A DNA stretch of 35,626 bases from assembly GCA_020724505.1 (NCBI GenBank), contig DYGV01000025.1, positions 1 through 35,626 of the forward strand. The letters run 5' to 3'. Both the position numbers and the translations under genes were made by a program. The DNA is from Anaerolinea thermophila. Its GTDB lineage: Bacteria; Chloroflexota; Anaerolineae; Anaerolineales; UBA4823. The notes beneath the pieces are model-generated. The model was not told the origin of the DNA. It saw only the letters and a program-made list of their open reading frames with translations, and ran no database searches. Every line of letters begins with the position of its first letter. Position 1 is the stretch's first letter. Below, one piece after another: positions 11,875-29,394 of the stretch.

Positions 11875-14800
11875 ATGAAGCTGTCTCAACCATTATTGTC
11901 CTCGTTATCACGGTTGTCATCAAAGGTTTTGCGGGCCGCAGGGTTGTCACTCGCCAGCCTGGTGACGGCGCTGGCGCTGATTTACGCCTTCATGCAGGCA
12001 GCGAACGTGCACGCGGCGGGCACGGCCCAGGAAACACCGCCAGCACCAGAAGATATTGACCAAGCTGTGGCTTCGGATCTACAGGTAGAAACATCCGTCA
12101 ATGAGGAAAGCGCGCGACCAGGGGATACGATTACCTATACAGTGCGCTACACCAACTCTCTCTCAGTGGCGATCACCAACGTTACGATCTCAGATACCAT
12201 CAGTCGTTGGCAATCTTTTTTCGGCGAATATACTTCCTCCCCCAATATCCCCATCGAACAGTTCAGTTATTCCGGCTCAGACTCAAGCGGATACGCCTTG
12301 TCCTGGCAAATTCCTCTCTTACCGCCCCAATCCAGCGGCGAAATTAAGTTCAGTGTGGTGATCTCACCCACTAACGAGCCCTCGTTCACCAAACCGATGA
12401 TCCTGCTGGGCAACGCGGTCGCTATTCGCTCGTCGCAAACCAGTCCACCGGTGACCGGCGCTTACGACGACGCGGTGACGATGGTGATAGGCCCCCTCTT
12501 GACCATCTCCAAAACGGCGGCCGCCAATGTCTTACCAGGGCATGTGCTGACCTATACATTAACCGTGGTCAATAACAATCGCGCTGACGCCATCCCTGCT
12601 ACGAATATCCTGATTGTAGATACTATTCCAAACGAAACAACCTTTTTGAGCGCCAACAACGGCGGAATGTATGACCCTGGGACGAAGCGCGTCTCTTGGT
12701 TACTTCCGGGGCCGTTACAGCCAGGCGGCAGCCTCAGCGTGCAGTTCGCGGTGTTGGTCAATGAACAGATAACCCTGCCTGCCACCATCCGCAATTCACG
12801 CATCGCTTTCTCGGTGACCAGCGCCGAGGTGCAATTGCCGGTTTACGGCACGCGAGATGTTAATACACCCGTCGCTTCTCTGCTGCAAAAGACGGTGGTG
12901 GACAAAGACGGCGGAACCGTGCGGGTATTTCCCACCGAGGAAGTGACTTACACCATCACAATTTACAACCCCCTCTCCGTAACCCTCATGGGCGTGATCG
13001 TTACCGATACCATGCCGGGCAATCCCGAACCATTCACCTTCGTGCGCGCCGTCGCGGGCAGCCCAGCACCCACGATCGTTGAAAATGGGCGCAAACTGGT
13101 CTGGCAGGTGAATCTGGCTGGCTGGGGCAGCACTTCATTGTCCTTCGTCGCTCGGGTGCCGCGCCAAACTCGTATCCGTGATAATGGTTCAAACGAGAGA
13201 TATTACAACACTCTCAGCGCCTATCACCCTCAGGCTAATTTCAAACCGGCGAACAATCTGGCGGAAGTGCTGGTTTATGCGGCATTGACCATGGATAAAC
13301 AGGTTACCCCAAGCCACGGGCTGACCGGCGATGTGGTGACATACACCATCAACCTGACGAACCACGGCCCGTTCGTGATGAGCGACATCCGCCTCACTGA
13401 AACTCTACCCGCCAACTTCCATTATTTATATATGGTATCGGGACCAGCTCCGTTGCCGGATTATCGCTATAACCCGGTGGTTTGGGCGGGGTTAACAGTG
13501 CAACCCGGTCAAAGGTACCAACTGATCTTTGCTGCGGTGATAGATGGCAACTGGCTAGTCACTTACGGCAACAATCTGAGCGCCTATTCGCCGGATGCTT
13601 ATATCCCGCGGCGCATCAATATTGCGCGCGTCTTGGTAGATCCGCCGCTGGCGATTAACAAGACGGTGCAGCCCACGACTGCTTATTTGGGATCCACGAT
13701 TCGTTATGATTTGCAGTTGACCAATCGCAGCGACGTCACCTGGACGATGGATTGGCTGCGCGACGATTTGCCAAATGGTTTCTATCAGGTGGGGGGAAGC
13801 AACGGCAATATCGCCGAGCTGTATTTCATCCCGCCGGTGGCTATTCCTCCAGGTGGCGTATGGAATGGCTCTTTCAACGCGCAAATCAGCGACGTGATTT
13901 GCGGTTTGTTGCCGCACACTTATCATAACGCGGCGGGGGCGATATCCATCCACACGGTTTTGCCGGAGTCCCTGGAAGCAACCAACGCCAGCAATTTGGC
14001 ACCGGTGGTGGTCGAGCCAAATATCAAGGTGGACTTGATCCCTTATCGCTATGCAGTGATTGCCGGCAGCGTTTTTACCTATACCCTGCATTTGAATAAT
14101 GTCTCTCCGACCGCGGCGTTGAACAGCACCATTGTAGTCACCTTACCAACAGGCTTTTCATACGTCGGGTCACCGCCAGGACAATTAGTCCCATCAGTGA
14201 ATGGACAGACGCTCACCTGGACAGGCATTGACTTGCTCGGGAACTCACAGATGTGGATCGTGTTCCGCGTTCAGGTGGCGGTTGGCGTTCCGACGGGCAT
14301 CAAAACGCCTAGTTTCAGCGCCACCTCCCCATCGTATGTGTGTTTTGGGCAGCTGGGCAGCGGCGATCACCCTCAAGGCGATGGCAAAGTATCGGTGGTG
14401 TCATGGGGGCTGGAGTTCAGCAAGCGGGCGATCCGCTCACAGGTTCCCCCCATGGCGTTGGTGGATTTCGAGATCACCCTGAAAAATAACGACGCCTATG
14501 ACTTTATCGTTGCTACCATAACCGATACCCTGCCAACCGGCTTCACCTATTATTCAATGGTCAGCGGGCCTTTGCCCTCGCTGGTTCAGCCGGGACGTCT
14601 GGTGTGGCGCAATGTCCTTATTCCGCCGACGGATCCAAAATGGACGGTGCGTCTGCAATCCTCGCCGTTATACGGCACGTATCAGAATCAGATCACCGCG
14701 TATAGCTCGGAAACAAACGTTCTACCAGGGGCGAGCGAATTTGTAAGCGTGATGCCGCTGTTCGACCTCAAGAAAGATGTCCGCGCCTCTCCTGCCATCC

Positions 14801-15177
14801 CAGGCACGATCATCCCTTACACCATCACGCTGGTCAATCAAAGTCAATCCACCTATAGCAGCATCCTGGTCACGGATACGCTGCCGGTAGGTTTTACTTA
14901 TCTGCGTACGCGCTCAGGTCCCACGCCCATTTCACTGGGGCCGAACAATGGTCGGCCTGTATGGAGCATCGCGGAATTGCGCGGTAATTGCACCGGCGGC
15001 TGCGCCATCCAGTTGGCGTTTGACGTATTCATCAGCCCTCTGGCAAGCCCTGGCGTGTATTACAATCGGGTGATCGGCAGCAGCCCCTCTGGTTCGGTGC
15101 CGGGCCCGATCAACACCGCGCCGTTGACCATCACCCAGGCTGCGGCCAATATCTTCCTTCCCGTTGTCGTCCGATAG
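11875..15177 (+). CDS. Secreted protein with about eight DUF11-type repeats and a Phe-Leu-Pro C-terminal motif
   Basis: Large exported protein of 1100 residues, probably cell-surface. An N-terminal signal peptide (about 1-46) has basic residues, a hydrophobic core and an AHA-type cleavage site. The body consists of about eight Ig-like DUF11 (conserved repeat) units starting near residues 79, 218, 350, 480, 602, 727, 857 and 975. Most begin with a variant of PGxxxTYTxxxxN (for example GDTITYTVRYTN, GDVVTYTINLTN) and contain a DTLP-like strand, for example TDTLPTGFTY and TDTLPVGFTY. No catalytic domain is seen, so a structural or adhesive role is inferred. The last residues, ANIFLPVVVR, match the end of the exported protease at 21091-22509. 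A GGAGGGG Shine-Dalgarno precedes the ATG. Probably monocistronic. Confidence 0.88.
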   Translation: MKLSQPLLSSLSRLSSKVLRAAGLSLASLVTALALIYAFMQAANVHAAGTAQETPPAPEDIDQAVASDLQVETSVNEESARPGDTITYTVRYTNSLSVAITNVTISDTISRWQSFFGEYTSSPNIPIEQFSYSGSDSSGYALSWQIPLLPPQSSGEIKFSVVISPTNEPSFTKPMILLGNAVAIRSSQTSPPVTGAYDDAVTMVIGPLLTISKTAAANVLPGHVLTYTLTVVNNNRADAIPATNILIVDTIPNETTFLSANNGGMYDPGTKRVSWLLPGPLQPGGSLSVQFAVLVNEQITLPATIRNSRIAFSVTSAEVQLPVYGTRDVNTPVASLLQKTVVDKDGGTVRVFPTEEVTYTITIYNPLSVTLMGVIVTDTMPGNPEPFTFVRAVAGSPAPTIVENGRKLVWQVNLAGWGSTSLSFVARVPRQTRIRDNGSNERYYNTLSAYHPQANFKPANNLAEVLVYAALTMDKQVTPSHGLTGDVVTYTINLTNHGPFVMSDIRLTETLPANFHYLYMVSGPAPLPDYRYNPVVWAGLTVQPGQRYQLIFAAVIDGNWLVTYGNNLSAYSPDAYIPRRINIARVLVDPPLAINKTVQPTTAYLGSTIRYDLQLTNRSDVTWTMDWLRDDLPNGFYQVGGSNGNIAELYFIPPVAIPPGGVWNGSFNAQISDVICGLLPHTYHNAAGAISIHTVLPESLEATNASNLAPVVVEPNIKVDLIPYRYAVIAGSVFTYTLHLNNVSPTAALNSTIVVTLPTGFSYVGSPPGQLVPSVNGQTLTWTGIDLLGNSQMWIVFRVQVAVGVPTGIKTPSFSATSPSYVCFGQLGSGDHPQGDGKVSVVSWGLEFSKRAIRSQVPPMALVDFEITLKNNDAYDFIVATITDTLPTGFTYYSMVSGPLPSLVQPGRLVWRNVLIPPTDPKWTVRLQSSPLYGTYQNQITAYSSETNVLPGASEFVSVMPLFDLKKDVRASPAIPGTIIPYTITLVNQSQSTYSSILVTDTLPVGFTYLRTRSGPTPISLGPNNGRPVWSIAELRGNCTGGCAIQLAFDVFISPLASPGVYYNRVIGSSPSGSVPGPINTAPLTITQAAANIFLPVVVR

Positions 15178-18125: not shown

Positions 18126-20951
18126 TTATTCGATGGCTTGCGTCAGCCGCGCCAGCCCAACCAGCACGTCTTTTCCCAGATGAAAGCGGATCACCCGACG
18201 CCCTGCATCCAACAACGCCTGTCGGTCTCCCAACGCCTGGGCGGTTTTTAAAACACCGAAGGTAATGGATGATTTTTCCACCCCGGCTTCATCGGGGATG
18301 GGGGCATCCTGCACGGGATCGCTGGTGATCTGAACGAACAAGCCGTGTCCGGCGTCGCCCTTGTGCAATTGACCGGTTGAGTGTAGGAAGCGCGGCCCAT
18401 AGCCGGTAGTAACAGCCAGCAAGGTCTTTTCTCGCAAGCGGCTGCGCAGCGCCAACAGCGAGGCGTCGGTCTCTGTGGTTGGGTGAAGGTACGCCTGGAC
18501 GGCAATGTAGGCATCCGGTTGAACCGATGAGAGGAACGCTTTCCAGGCCTCTGCGATAGTTTTTACCTCCGAATCGCTATAAACGGTGACACTCCCCTCG
18601 CGCAGGGTCGGCGTCAATTCGGGCAACCGACCGTGCTGCTGATAAGCCGCGACCATCTGCCGCGCCAGGGCTTTTGCGGCTTCAACATTGGGCTGATCGA
18701 AGGGATTGACGCCCAGCCGCTGACCTGCCACAGCGGTTGCCATCTCCCAGAGGAAAAATTGCGCCCCCAGATCGTAAACATCCTGCATTTCCAGTCGTAT
18801 CACCGGATGTCCCGCCGCTTCCAGCGCCAGCACAGCCAGGTCGTGAGTATGATCCTCCGCCAAGCGCAGGTAGACGAAACCGCGATCCTTGCCATAGAGT
18901 TCAGGCTCGGCGATAGCCTCTCCTACTACCGGTAGAATCCCCTTGCCATCTTTTCCGGTGCTTTCGGCGATGAGTTGTTCAACCCAATCGCCAAAGGTGC
19001 AGATGGCTGGCGAGGTAATCAAGGTGAGTTTATCGCAGCCAGCCTTTGCCATTTCTCCAATAGCGGCGCCCAATCGAGCTGCCGGATTGAGAGCGCCATC
19101 TCTTCGATACGCTTCGGCTGCCCCGCAGGCTTCAGCCATAGCCTGGGCGCGCTCCAACAACCGCGGCATTTGCACACCAATCAACGCCGCCGGTGCCAGC
19201 CCAAACAGCGAGAGCGCCGAATATCTCCCGCCGATGTTGGGGTCGTTGAGCAGGGCGGCGCGAAAACGATAACGCTCTGCAACCTCGGCCAACCCGCTCC
19301 CAGGATCGGTGATGGCGATAAAATGTCTCCCTGCCTGCTCAGCCCCCAGCGCAGCCGACACCCAGTTGTAAAAAAATTTAAAAAGCGAGAAGGTTTCGAT
19401 CGTCCCGCCGGATTTTGTAGAGACAATGAATAGCGTACGCGCTGCATCCAGCCGTTGGGCGTGTTCCAACACCGCGTCCGGGTCGGTGCTGTCCAAGACA
19501 GCCAGATCCAGATACCCTGGCGATACACCGAACGTCTTTCTCAGGACCTCCGCCGCCAGGCTGGAGCCTCCCATCCCTAATAACAGGGCATGGGTGAACC
19601 CTTCGGCGCGCAGCTCTTGCGCCAGAGCTTCCAGGCGCGGCACAGCTTCCTGACTGGTTTCGATGGTCTTCAACCAGCCCAGCCGGTTGCTAATTTCAGC
19701 CGGATCCGGCTTCCAGAGCGTATGATCCAACGCCCAGATGCGATCAACCACCCGCTCGCGTGCCAGTTCGGCTTTCGCCACCTCGACGGCGGGTTGGTGT
19801 GCAGCCAATCGTTCGCTGAATGACTGGCCATACCTCTCAGCTAACAATAAAAGCTGTCGTTTCTGGGTGATGCTCCGCATGAGCGAATCGAAAGACTTTT
19901 GAAATGCAATCACCCCTTCCACCTGTAATTGATGCGTGACTGCGTCCAGGTCAATCCCCAGTACCGCCAGTTGAGCAATATCCCGGCGCGCCTGATCCAA
20001 ATCCACGTCCACCGTCCGCGCGACGCGGCCATGATCCAGCACCGCTTGCAAAGTAGCCGGCGGCAATGTGTTCACGGTATGCGGGCCGATCAAATTGTCT
20101 ACATACAGAGTATCTGAATAAGCCGGATTTTTCGTCCCGGTGCTAGCCCACAATGGACGCTGCAAGCGCGCCCCCGAGGCAGCTAATTTCTCCCAACGTT
20201 CGCCTCTGAAAATCCCTTGAAAACAGGCATAAGCCAGCTTGGCGTTGGCAACGGCGATCTTGCCGCGCAGTCCGGCGGCGATGTTTGCCAGATTTTCGTC
20301 GCGGATCGACTCCAGCGCTTTATCTACCGCGGTGTCCAGCCGGCTGACAAAGAAGGACGCCACCGAAGCCACGCGAGATACATCTCCTCCAGCCGAAACC
20401 AGCTTTTCTAGCCCGGACATAAACGCCTGGGTTACCGCCTCATATTGGGCAATGGAGAAGATCAGGGTAACGTTGACATTTATCCCGCGCGCCAGTGCTT
20501 CTTCAATCGCCGGCAAACCCTCCGGCGTGGCGGGGATCTTGATCATCAGATTCGGACGATCCACTGCCTGGAAAAGGCGCACCGCCTCGGCTACTGTGGC
20601 TTGGGTGTCGTGTGCCAGAGAAGGGTTGACCTCCAGGCTGACAAAGCCATCCGCGCCGCCACTCGCTTCATAAACCGGGCGAAACAGATCCGCCGCCTGA
20701 CGGATGTCGGCGATCGCCAACGCCTCATAAATCTCCTCCACAGACTTGCCAGCCAGCGCCAGAGCGCGCATGGCATCGTCGTAATCGCGGCTGCCAGCGA
20801 TCGCCTTGTCGAAGATGGTGGGATTAGAGGTCAAACCGCGTAGCCCCTGCGCAATCAGGTTTGCCAGAAAGCCGCTGTCAAAATAAGAGCGCCGGATGTC
20901 GTCGAGCCAGATCGCCTGGCCGAGCTCCACAAAATCGGTTAGTTGAGCCAT
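18126..20951 (-). CDS. Bifunctional transaldolase / glucose-6-phosphate isomerase
   Basis: A 941-residue fusion acting in the pentose phosphate pathway and glycolysis. Residues 1 to about 365 are transaldolase: LTSNPTIFDKAI near the start, the Schiff-base Lys in LMIKIPATPEG (around residue 138), and GINVNVTLIFS. From about 380 to the end it is a glucose-6-phosphate isomerase: LGMGGSSLAAEVLR, the sugar-phosphate SIS motif STKSGGTIETFS, GGRYSALSLFGL, and HKGDAGHGLF near the C-terminus. Both active sites look intact. The fusion would let fructose-6-phosphate from one domain feed the other. GAGG lies just before the ATG; three CTTTAGC repeats cover the leader. It follows the exported protease gene on the same strand after a terminator, so it probably has its own promoter. 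Confidence 0.95.
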   Translation of the reverse strand: MAQLTDFVELGQAIWLDDIRRSYFDSGFLANLIAQGLRGLTSNPTIFDKAIAGSRDYDDAMRALALAGKSVEEIYEALAIADIRQAADLFRPVYEASGGADGFVSLEVNPSLAHDTQATVAEAVRLFQAVDRPNLMIKIPATPEGLPAIEEALARGINVNVTLIFSIAQYEAVTQAFMSGLEKLVSAGGDVSRVASVASFFVSRLDTAVDKALESIRDENLANIAAGLRGKIAVANAKLAYACFQGIFRGERWEKLAASGARLQRPLWASTGTKNPAYSDTLYVDNLIGPHTVNTLPPATLQAVLDHGRVARTVDVDLDQARRDIAQLAVLGIDLDAVTHQLQVEGVIAFQKSFDSLMRSITQKRQLLLLAERYGQSFSERLAAHQPAVEVAKAELARERVVDRIWALDHTLWKPDPAEISNRLGWLKTIETSQEAVPRLEALAQELRAEGFTHALLLGMGGSSLAAEVLRKTFGVSPGYLDLAVLDSTDPDAVLEHAQRLDAARTLFIVSTKSGGTIETFSLFKFFYNWVSAALGAEQAGRHFIAITDPGSGLAEVAERYRFRAALLNDPNIGGRYSALSLFGLAPAALIGVQMPRLLERAQAMAEACGAAEAYRRDGALNPAARLGAAIGEMAKAGCDKLTLITSPAICTFGDWVEQLIAESTGKDGKGILPVVGEAIAEPELYGKDRGFVYLRLAEDHTHDLAVLALEAAGHPVIRLEMQDVYDLGAQFFLWEMATAVAGQRLGVNPFDQPNVEAAKALARQMVAAYQQHGRLPELTPTLREGSVTVYSDSEVKTIAEAWKAFLSSVQPDAYIAVQAYLHPTTETDASLLALRSRLREKTLLAVTTGYGPRFLHSTGQLHKGDAGHGLFVQITSDPVQDAPIPDEAGVEKSSITFGVLKTAQALGDRQALLDAGRRVIRFHLGKDVLVGLARLTQAIE

Positions 20952-21090: not shown

Positions 21091-22509
21091 TTATTTGCGT
21101 ACAGCCGGTAAGAAAACGTTATTCGGCCAAAGCCAGAACGGTCGAGGCGTGGCTGTTGGCGTCGGCGTCCGCGTTCGCGTCGGGGTCGGCGTAGGCGTGC
21201 CCGTCACAGGGCGTACGCGGAAATTGGCTACGGTGTAAGCAGTGTTATTCAGGACGCGGTGATCATCCGCGTCGCAGGGGGGATGGTTGACATCGCCGAG
21301 GCGGCACGAGGTGTTCGTACCGCCGGGTACGCCCATCGGCTGGCCGCTGTAATAGAGGGCCGGGTTAGCCCAATATTGCAGCCGTGTACAGCTAATGCGT
21401 CGCGCATCGCATTCGTTTTTGTAGGACATGATGGTGCGGAAGCGAGCGACGGTGTTCACATAGCCGTGAGCGTAGCTATACGGAGTAACACCGACATCCA
21501 CAAACCAATCGTGGCGCGCCCCCATGTTGTGCCCCAACTCATGGGCAAAGCTATAGTAACCGGTGGCGCAATCGTGAGCCACCACCGAGAAAGCCCAATC
21601 CCTGAAATAAGAGCCCACCGGATTCATGTGATAGGCAATGCCGCAGTACTGAGAGGAAACCTCGATCAGACTGACCAGATCCGCGTAGTAAGTGTTGCGC
21701 AGCGAGTGTACGCTGTTCATATGTTGGTCATCGCTGCGTCGCAAGCGTTCCAGGTCGGTTTCCATGCTGCTAGATTCGGTGTAGGCGATCTCGCCCATAT
21801 ATACCAGGTTTAGTCGCTGGTTGATGTTGCTGTTGGCGTAAGAGGTATTGGTTTGGGCGATCGCCAGGTTAATCAGGTTCTGGATAGCAGTAACGCCACC
21901 GGCGGCGCTGCGCGCTGCGGGGGTGTAAACCACCAATACATCAATCACTGAACCATCATCCTCCACCGCGTTGGGTGAGGGGAATGTTTCAGGCGAGTTG
22001 ATTTCAGACGCCGGCGGGTTGACCTCAATGGGCGGCGCTTCTTCGGGGTATAAGGACTGATCAATCTGGGAAATCACGTGAACGCCATCACCGGCGTAGC
22101 GTACTTCGTAAACGCCGTTGGGGGAGCTGACTTGCGCCGCGATTTGTCCACCGCTGGAAGCCAAAAATAGCTGCGCCATTGCTTCACCTTCGATATGACC
22201 GACCCAGATGGTTGCATTGCCTTGCAAATAGTTTTCATCAATTACGGCGGTCAGAACCAAATCATCGAACAGATTCAGCAGCAATTTTCCACCTGGGCGC
22301 GCCCTTTCCAAAGAGGCGAAGTTGATGGTCGCGAAGCGCGATCGAGCCGCTGCCCGTAGATTTGCCTCATTCAGTTGCTGAGTCTGATGGGTCTCCAAGA
22401 ATAGGGGGGCAACTTCCTGATCCACGCGGGTTGCAGCGGCTACCCCAAAGCTCGCCCCTAAAACAACAGTAACCAGCAACAAGACGGGTAAATGTTTTTG
22501 GTTGTTCAT
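21091..22509 (-). CDS. Secreted metzincin-type zinc metallopeptidase with Thr-Pro linker and Phe-Leu-Pro C-terminal motif
   Basis: 472 residues, exported. It has a signal peptide (about 1-26: basic NNQKH, then a hydrophobic core ending VAAA), an N-terminal region of about 150 residues that resembles a propeptide, and a catalytic domain (about 175-430). The extended zinc motif HELGHNMGARHD is at 323-334 and the Met-turn reads RTIMSY some 30 residues later, both metzincin hallmarks (reprolysin/pappalysin-like). Several Cys in the catalytic domain may form disulfides. A Thr/Pro-rich linker (TPTPTPTRTRTPTPTATP) leads to the C-terminal WPNNVFLPAVRK, which resembles the end of the DUF11 protein. 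The ATG at 22509 has AAGGAG 10 bases upstream; an in-frame ATG 51 bp earlier does not. Substrate unknown. Confidence 0.9.
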   Translation of the reverse strand: MNNQKHLPVLLLVTVVLGASFGVAAATRVDQEVAPLFLETHQTQQLNEANLRAAARSRFATINFASLERARPGGKLLLNLFDDLVLTAVIDENYLQGNATIWVGHIEGEAMAQLFLASSGGQIAAQVSSPNGVYEVRYAGDGVHVISQIDQSLYPEEAPPIEVNPPASEINSPETFPSPNAVEDDGSVIDVLVVYTPAARSAAGGVTAIQNLINLAIAQTNTSYANSNINQRLNLVYMGEIAYTESSSMETDLERLRRSDDQHMNSVHSLRNTYYADLVSLIEVSSQYCGIAYHMNPVGSYFRDWAFSVVAHDCATGYYSFAHELGHNMGARHDWFVDVGVTPYSYAHGYVNTVARFRTIMSYKNECDARRISCTRLQYWANPALYYSGQPMGVPGGTNTSCRLGDVNHPPCDADDHRVLNNTAYTVANFRVRPVTGTPTPTPTRTRTPTPTATPRPFWLWPNNVFLPAVRK

Positions 22510-22675
22510 CAATCGTAATCTCCTTATGTTCACGCCATACTCGACTCTACCTTGCATCACATCTTACTGCAATCCCACAAAGGTTGTATTTAGGGTTTCC
22601 TTATCAAACGGCAAAGCGGTTATTAATTTTCTATTAGAACCATCCACCACGCCTGCTCTGAGCGCGCCTCACGGA

Positions 22676-28012: not shown

Positions 28013-28636
28013 GTGTCAGATCAAAAACCTTTTCATCCCCCCGCCTCTAACCCGTTGCTGATCGTCATTTCCGGGCCGTCGGGGGTTGGCAAAGATACAG
28101 TGATAAGCTGTATGAAAGAGCGCGGCCTGCCCTTCCACTTCGTGGTCACGGCGACTACCCGACCGCCGCGCGTGGATGAGCGCCACGGCGTGGATTATTA
28201 TTTTCTCTCCAAAGATGAATTCGCCGAAATGATCGAGCAGGGTGAGTTGCTCGAATATGCCATTGTATATAACGATTATAAAGGCATCCCCAAACAGCAA
28301 GTGCGCCAGGCATTGGAGAGCGGAAAAGATGTGGTGTTGCGTGTGGATGTTCAAGGCGCAGCCACCATCCGTAAGCTTTGCCCGGAGGCGCTGCTCATTT
28401 TTCTCATCACAGAAAACGAGGCTGAGCTGGAGGCGCGTTTGATTGCCCGTAAAAGCGAGACGCCCGAAGGGCTAAAGCTGCGCATTGCCACCGCCCGGCA
28501 GGAACTAAAACAAATGGATCTATTCGATTACGTGGTCGTCAATCGGCAATCCAAACTTCAGGAGACGGTCGAAACGATCCAGGCCATCATCCGAGCGGAG
28601 CATCATCGCGTGCATCCGAGAAAGGTTGTCCTCTAA
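28013..28636 (+). CDS. gmk: Guanylate kinase
   Basis: Phosphorylates GMP/dGMP to the diphosphate. 207 residues. P-loop SGPSGVGKDT at 20-29 (Asp where many have Ser or Gly), the GMP-binding TTRPPRVDERHGVDYYFLS, and RVDVQGAATIR are characteristic. The start is a GTG preceded by AGGAG at 6 bases; no in-frame ATG fits. Its TAA overlaps the ATG of the rhomboid gene (TAATG), so the two are translationally coupled. Confidence 0.96.
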   Translation: MSDQKPFHPPASNPLLIVISGPSGVGKDTVISCMKERGLPFHFVVTATTRPPRVDERHGVDYYFLSKDEFAEMIEQGELLEYAIVYNDYKGIPKQQVRQALESGKDVVLRVDVQGAATIRKLCPEALLIFLITENEAELEARLIARKSETPEGLKLRIATARQELKQMDLFDYVVVNRQSKLQETVETIQAIIRAEHHRVHPRKVVL

Positions 28637-29394
28637 TGTTCCCTCCCCCCAATGATCCGAACGCCTCTCAGTCCGGTGGTCGCTATGTGACCGTCCAATT
28701 GCCGCGTTTGACGCCTTATTTCACCATTGCTTTACTTTCAGTTACGATTGCGGTGTTTCTGGCGCAAATAATCACCCAATACCTGCTGGGTTTCGATTTA
28801 CCCTCCCTTCTTGGCTTGAAAGTGAATCAGCTCATCTTACGCGGCGAGGTATGGCGGCTGATCACCCCTGTGTTTTTACACGGCTCGCTGCTGCATATCG
28901 GCTTTAATCTGTATGCTTTGTACATTTTGGGGCCAGCGCTGGAAAGTCACTATGGCCATGGCCGTTTTCTGGCGCTGTATTTGATCTCTGGCTTTGCCGG
29001 TAATGTGCTTTCCTTCTTATTTTCCAGCGCGCCTTCGTTGGGTTCTTCGACAGCGATCTTTGGTTTGCTGGGTGCAGAGGGCATTTTCCTGTACCGCAAT
29101 CGGGAAATTTTCGGCGCCCGGGCGCAGCGCGCGCTGGGCAATGTCATCTTGATCGCCGTGGTAAACCTGGTCATCGGCATGTCGCCTGGGATTGACAATT
29201 GGGGGCATGTCGGCGGTCTGTTGGCCGGCACATTCTTTGCTTGGTTCGCCGGCCCGTTATACCATTTGGAAGGCGATTCTTTTTTTCCCCGTCTGGTAGA
29301 TGAGCATGGCAACGGAGACGCCCTGCGCGCCGGCATTGTAGATGGGATCATCTTTGCCGCTTTGGCGGCGATGAAGTTTGTGCGCGGCTTCTGA
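28636..29394 (+). CDS. Rhomboid-family intramembrane serine protease
   Basis: 252 residues, about six to seven membrane segments. Catalytic Ser138 lies in LGSSTAIFGLLGA (GxSx at 136-139) and catalytic His191 in NWGHVGGLLAG. The HGSLLHIGFNLYAL segment in the first loop is also a rhomboid hallmark. It cleaves membrane proteins within the bilayer; the substrate is unknown. It is translationally coupled to gmk, a pairing that need not mean shared function. A short soluble N-terminus rich in Pro and Asn precedes the first segment. Confidence 0.92.
   Translation: MFPPPNDPNASQSGGRYVTVQLPRLTPYFTIALLSVTIAVFLAQIITQYLLGFDLPSLLGLKVNQLILRGEVWRLITPVFLHGSLLHIGFNLYALYILGPALESHYGHGRFLALYLISGFAGNVLSFLFSSAPSLGSSTAIFGLLGAEGIFLYRNREIFGARAQRALGNVILIAVVNLVIGMSPGIDNWGHVGGLLAGTFFAWFAGPLYHLEGDSFFPRLVDEHGNGDALRAGIVDGIIFAALAAMKFVRGF

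Follow-up and report, generated by a model that had tools for sequence, protein, structure and literature searches.

Two unrelated proteins, both apparently exported and encoded on a 35,626-nucleotide contig of Anaerolinea thermophila (GenBank DYGV01000025.1; the whole stretch that was analysed is called the window here), end in nearly the same residues, FLP followed by a few variable residues and a terminal R or K. This raises the question whether the shared end, hereafter the tag, is an accident of two sequences or a signal, and, if it is a signal, what it is for.

Two unrelated window proteins with a common end

Both ends were found as predicted, with ...AANIFLPVVVR-stop at 15142-15177 on the forward strand and ...PNNVFLPAVRK-stop at 21126-21091 on the reverse strand (Table 1). 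The claim that the two proteins are unrelated in sequence also held, one being made of DUF11 repeats and the other an M12B/reprolysin metalloprotease, and the assumed export of both is supported by a signal peptide in each (simple rule). A Thr/Pro linker upstream of the tag is present in the metalloprotease, as had been noted, and there is none in the DUF11 protein. Single-sequence folding of the metalloprotease gave a mean pLDDT of 33.6 and was useless. No NCBIfam model for the tag was reported among the proteins scanned. The window further contains, at 18126-20951 on the reverse strand, an open reading frame of 941 residues that by eye fuses a transaldolase-like with a glucose-6-phosphate isomerase-like part.

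Table 1. Coordinates of the tagged genes of the window and of their parts
Feature	Coordinates	Strand	Basis
Gene of DUF11-repeat protein, exported, tagged, 1100 aa	11875..15177	+	ORF; PF01345, 2.4e-63; signal peptide by simple rule
Signal peptide of DUF11 protein, about the first 48 residues, end approximate	11875..12018	+	hydrophobic segment after K/R, then AHAAG; cleavage site inferred
C-terminal tag IFLPVVVR and stop codon, DUF11 protein	15151..15177	+	fits the profile of 100 ends
Gene of M12B/reprolysin metalloprotease, exported, tagged	21091..22560	-	PF13583, 2e-19; HELGHNMGARHD motif
Likely true start (ATG) of metalloprotease	22509	-	
Signal peptide of metalloprotease, MNNQKHLPVLLLVTVVLGASFGVAAA	22432..22509	-	start and end inferred
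Thr/Pro linker of metalloprotease, GTPTPTPTRTRTPTPTATPRPFWLWPNN	21118..21201	-	equivalent linkers of Herpetosiphon-type homologs predicted disordered
C-terminal tag VFLPAVRK and stop codon, metalloprotease	21091..21117	-	

Enrichment of the tag on exported proteins

The proposed check, a comparison of exported C-termini with shuffled and cytoplasmic sets, was run on about 1.9 Mb of sequence, taken mainly from the surroundings of pattern matches in ten Chloroflexota genomes; genes and signal peptides were called there by a simple script and rule. It was passed: the end [FY]LP-h-h-x-[RKHNQ] occurred in 80 of 246 signal-peptide (SPI-type) proteins and in only 4 of 596 cytoplasmic calls, three of which appear to be exported proteins that are fragmentary or have a misplaced start, and shuffling of the last eight residues left a mean of 0.085 matches, with a maximum of 2 in 200 runs. 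Only one of 34 lipoproteins and one of 258 membrane proteins carried the end, and internal matches amounted to 10 in approximately 495,000 residues. Since most stretches had been picked for holding a tag, 80/246 overstates the tagged share of exported proteins genome-wide; the choice was blind to export, which leaves the contrast between protein classes meaningful.

A profile of 100 ends, [V42 L21 I15][Y61 F35]L95 P100 [L52 M17 V12 I9][V53 I28 L15]x[R69 K20], agreed in outline with the consensus of the original prediction, N-[IV]-F-L-P-[VA]-V-x-[RK], but not in detail: V, L or I occupies the first position, Y outnumbers F as the aromatic residue, and the chain closes with R in about 70% of ends and with K in 20%. 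The way the ends were selected accounts in part for the invariant P and for the constant spacing to the stop codon. Among variants that had not been fetched for their own end were VYLPFIVR, VYLPLTIR and VFLPSVRR, together with ends carrying one to three extra residues; extensions past the basic residue included VYLPLTTKQP, YLPLIIKSVP and VYLPVVLKP. That the motif keeps a set distance from the C-terminus points to recognition of the chain end. The exact C-terminus is not essential to the tag, given that short extensions occur, and because these are tolerated a free carboxylate is probably not essential either.

All four proline and all six leucine codons are used in the tag, so that it is not a DNA repeat, and to judge from this codon variety selection appears to act at the protein level. 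Tagged proteins are longer than untagged SPI proteins (median of 772 versus 312 residues). A strongly Thr/Pro/Ser-rich approach to the end was seen in 8/80 tagged proteins versus 2/112, and linkers are thus common without being the rule.

Occurrence in the window's own genome and across Chloroflexota

In the 4.1-Mb genome from which the window comes, the DNA pattern of the tag ([FY]-L-P-h-h-x-[R/K-like]-stop) was found at 20 places, versus 10 for the reversed control. At least eight credible genes end in the tag, two of them in the window. The other six encode an exonuclease (IYLPLATR), a PKD protein (LYLPVIEK), two proteins that end in LYLPLVIR and in LYLPIVVK, a protein of 175 residues whose signal peptide is clear (LYLPVLHR) and a protein ending in LFLPLTRR, the N-terminus of which is missing in an assembly gap. 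All of these tagged proteins with a readable N-terminus are exported; the remaining pattern matches are mostly short or accidental frames.

Genome-wide counts of the pattern and of its reversed control in 251 Chloroflexota genomes showed an excess of the tag in several families, here designated by f numbers: 246 vs 36 in f22, the richest family, 67 vs 17 in f32, 58 vs 17 in f3 and 17 vs 4 in f5. Single genomes gave 18 vs 0 (G154) and 7 vs 1 (the window's own genome). No excess was detected in f2, which belongs to the same order as the window (22 vs 44), or in families f17, f27 and f30, and 35 genomes from other phyla showed none either (100 vs 122). These counts and the tagged proteins identified in further genomes confirm the statement in the original prediction that similar ends exist on other Chloroflexota proteins. 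Chance or compositional bias as the origin of the end is ruled out by the shuffles, the reversed-pattern control and the genomes outside the phylum, and after these controls nothing speaks in its favour; we give it practically no weight.

Within family f3, one genome (G163) has no tag matches and seven sortase matches, and in two others (G156, G184) tags are numerous and sortase is missing. It is possible that one sorting system was replaced by another in this family.

The tag as an add-on module

Forty-eight tagged proteins matched 76 Pfam families, among them RCC1 repeats, M14, M28, S8, trypsin, C25, CAP, amidase, nucleases, beta-helices and DUF11, and an alignment of these proteins was invariant only at the leucine and the proline of the tag. 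The tag thereby shares with C-terminal sorting signals in general that it is a common end on otherwise unrelated exported proteins.

Closely related proteins differ in whether they carry it. In M12B paralogs of the Herpetosiphon type, L251-L253 stop where the folded part ends and have neither linker nor tag; L238-L240 and L247-L249 continue with a TP linker of variable length and then the tag. A search of named genomes yielded 80 relatives of this clade, the tails of which were typed by eye. The tail is a type IX secretion domain in members from Bacteroidota/Ignavibacteria, GlyGly-CTERM-like in those from gammaproteobacteria, and a linker followed by VYLPVAIKN in the member from Herpetosiphon aurantiacus DSM 785. 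As the tails differ by phylum, each phylum seems to place its own sorting signal at the same position, the tag being that of Chloroflexota; on the evidence of these sequences, the tag is located where relatives from other phyla have known sorting signals. In the AlphaFold model of the H. aurantiacus protein, linker and tag (residues 678-745) have a pLDDT below 50, and the domains mostly reach 80-97. The metalloprotease of the window is only remotely similar to the clade used for this comparison and retrieved no relatives as a query in the first scan of named genomes. Proteins with an LTD domain, considered as a second example of a signal swap within the order, proved uninformative.

Other common tails were encountered along the way. 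Two Tahibacter M12B homologs (L257, L319) have the C-terminus DLIF[KR]N[GS]F[ED]P, a short common tail where relatives have sorting signals, and a homolog from Acidobacteria (L270) has a similar NLIFANDFEQG near its end. Exported proteins of one genus (L411, L413 and L414, from G156 and G184) have in common an end region GWNLVS...GWGYW...Y[DS]LP, apparently a different C-terminal module, which is also found on an untagged C25 peptidase.

Comparison with known sorting systems

What sets the tag apart from LPXTG, PEP-CTERM, GlyGly-CTERM and type IX signals is that it contains no membrane helix and no folded domain. It resembles LPXTG signals in the LP near the C-terminus, the basic last residue and the linkers; it differs in being LP-h-h-x-R/K at the very end, without threonine-glycine, without a helix and with nothing after the motif that could retain the protein. 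With GlyGly-CTERM/rhombosortase and PEP-CTERM/exosortase it has in common that a short, lineage-specific C-terminal signal with a basic end occurs on unrelated exported proteins, often behind a low-complexity linker, but it has no C-terminal transmembrane helix, tag and linker being short or disordered, and exosortase is missing from nearly all tag-bearing genomes. The type IX system of Bacteroidota (Por secretion tail, PorU sortase) likewise uses a helix-free C-terminal signal on Sec-exported proteins of many kinds, its domain is found at the same place on homologous M12B proteases, and a PorU-like C25 peptidase is present in most tag-bearing genomes. However, the type IX C-terminal domain is folded and comprises about 70-100 residues, whereas the tag consists of eight; SprA is absent from the Chloroflexota genomes tested, and C25 does not seem to be strictly required. 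The window itself encodes a GlpG-like rhomboid protease (28636-29394, forward strand) that resembles rhombosortase only weakly, scoring 34.1 bits against a cut-off of 84, and is probably an ordinary rhomboid.

Candidate readers of the tag

The original prediction had suggested looking for a co-occurring transpeptidase. This search gave a correlated candidate only, a PorU-like C25 peptidase; sortase and exosortase failed as general readers. Sortase does not track the tag (24/26 tag-bearing versus 24/30 tag-free genomes, p 0.26) and no sortase match (PF04203) was found in the tag-rich genomes G156 and G184, while exosortase (PF09721) is limited to 2/26 tag-bearing genomes, that of the window included. 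Both enzymes are ruled out as general readers by this distribution. The tag could still be taken for a degenerate LPXTG substrate of an ordinary sortase, or for an exosortase substrate, in view of its LP and terminal basic residue and of the sortases that most Chloroflexota possess. We consider this highly improbable: unless the assemblies miss genes, the two sortase-free, tag-rich genomes refute it as a general explanation, exosortase is too rare, the tag comes without a membrane helix, and genuine LPXTG proteins are present in the same genomes. The exosortase-family match of the window's own genome (L337; G000:C208:17752-18525) lies in an 884-residue frame, and such matches are rare among the sampled Chloroflexota.

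The translocon protein SprA was absent from all 22 Chloroflexota genomes tested but was found in Hymenobacter, the positive control, and the type IX translocon is thereby ruled out as the general reader. No Por secretion C-terminal domain was reported in the window proteins or among the 25 commonest families of the 48 tagged proteins, and in the gene neighbourhoods of the ten genomes no family recurs beside tagged genes.

Peptidase_C25 (gingipain/PorU family) matches were found in 24/26 tag-bearing versus 3/30 tag-free Chloroflexota genomes, and matches with an intact His/Cys pair in 22/26 versus 1/30 (p approximately 1e-10; counted by family, 8/9 versus 1/16, p approximately 7e-5), although shared ancestry inflates these p-values. 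The C25 protein of G109 had PorU as its only PDB match (6za2, 1.6e-12) and the PorU model as its best NCBIfam match (165 bits, below the cut-off of 420). This co-occurrence across genomes and families, and the resemblance to PorU, speak for the tag as a signal that marks substrates for a PorU-like cysteine peptidase of the C25 family. Such an enzyme would cut or transfer proteins at the cell surface in the manner of PorU acting on type IX cargo, but without a type IX translocon. Against it stand the exceptions, which weaken C25 as an obligatory reader: G095 has many tags and a sole C25 that is dead and lacks the His/Cys pair (YFGQ, SFAS), no C25 exists in G031 despite four verified tagged proteins, and a true C25 is likewise missing from the tag-bearing genomes G198 and G191. 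Moreover, most C25 proteins carry the tag, or a variant thereof, at their own C-terminus and may simply be cargo. We think it unlikely that C25 is what the tag serves. Read cautiously, the data make C25 a preferred cargo or an accessory; that it acts as a sortase is possible, but there is no demonstration of it. Equally doubtful is the further proposal that tag and PorU-like C25 form a type-IX-like pathway in bacteria without known outer-membrane genes, in which exported proteins would be recognised by the eight residues and a C25 transpeptidase would cut or attach them at the surface without the type IX translocon.

C25 genes were also seen near sortase-related genes. In G109 two DUF11 proteins, the first tagged and the second LPQTAG-anchored, are followed in the same row by a tagged PorU-like C25 (L415:4361-10001, reverse strand), in G236 an LPETG protein adjoins a tagged C25 (L167:4447-7789, forward strand), and in G061, G029 and G093 roughly 1 kb separates a C25 from a sortase.

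A probable sorting tag with an unidentified reader

The tag exists, is C-terminal, is almost confined to proteins with a signal peptide, behaves as an add-on module and is limited to certain lineages. We conclude that the end [V/L/I]-[Y/F]-L-P-[L/M/V/I]-[V/I/L]-x-[R/K] is probably a C-terminal sorting tag in part of the Chloroflexota, the reader of which is unidentified. The initial suggestion of an uncharacterised sorting, anchoring or secretion signal is supported by the enrichment, and which of these functions applies has not been established. A tagged protein would leave the cytoplasm by the Sec route, directed by an ordinary signal peptide that is not of the lipoprotein type. Once it is across the membrane, its exposed and often linker-borne C-terminus would be recognised by an as yet unidentified component of the envelope, which may then deliver it into or across the outer envelope of the cell. 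An envelope receptor is the best explanation because the tag is nearly confined to SPI-type proteins, is modular and occupies the position of the sorting signals of relatives; the reading of the tag by a receptor, with localisation as the outcome, is inferred, without experimental evidence that connects the tag with localisation. Chloroflexota envelopes are described as multilayered and sometimes diderm-like, without known outer-membrane genes (PMC13319060), and a tag that serves to bring proteins to a layer of such an envelope, or to keep them there, would fit.

A narrower form of the sorting-tag explanation is that the tag acts as a docking peptide which binds non-covalently to one surface structure (S-layer-like or an outer layer). 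The rarity of other anchors on tagged proteins, to which the lipoprotein and membrane-protein counts testify, the occurrence of Thr/Pro linkers and the multilayered envelopes (PMC13319060) agree with docking, but no binding partner has been found, and we regard it as a tentative possibility. It is very unlikely that the end is not read at all and merely forms a generic beta-strand or hydrophobic cap that aids folding or resists C-terminal degradation. Its residues are indeed hydrophobic and strand-like, with a basic residue last, and many of the upstream domains have beta-sandwich or repeat folds. A cap, however, would not be expected to stand alone behind long disordered linkers, to keep LP near-invariant among variable neighbours, or to be missing from paralogs, from nearly all lipoproteins and from families such as f2, which are related and export comparable proteins.

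We found no paper on the tag or on Chloroflexota sorting in the open-access literature of PubMed Central, which is weak evidence of absence as only open papers are covered. Protein sorting across the multilayered envelopes of Chloroflexota is little described, and a tag on dozens of proteins per genome offers a handle on the secretome: it predicts which proteins reach the surface or the outside, and it turns the search for the reader into a defined problem, for which users of the tag and their close relatives without it provide a natural comparison. A helix-free signal of eight residues would join the known C-terminal sorting signals.
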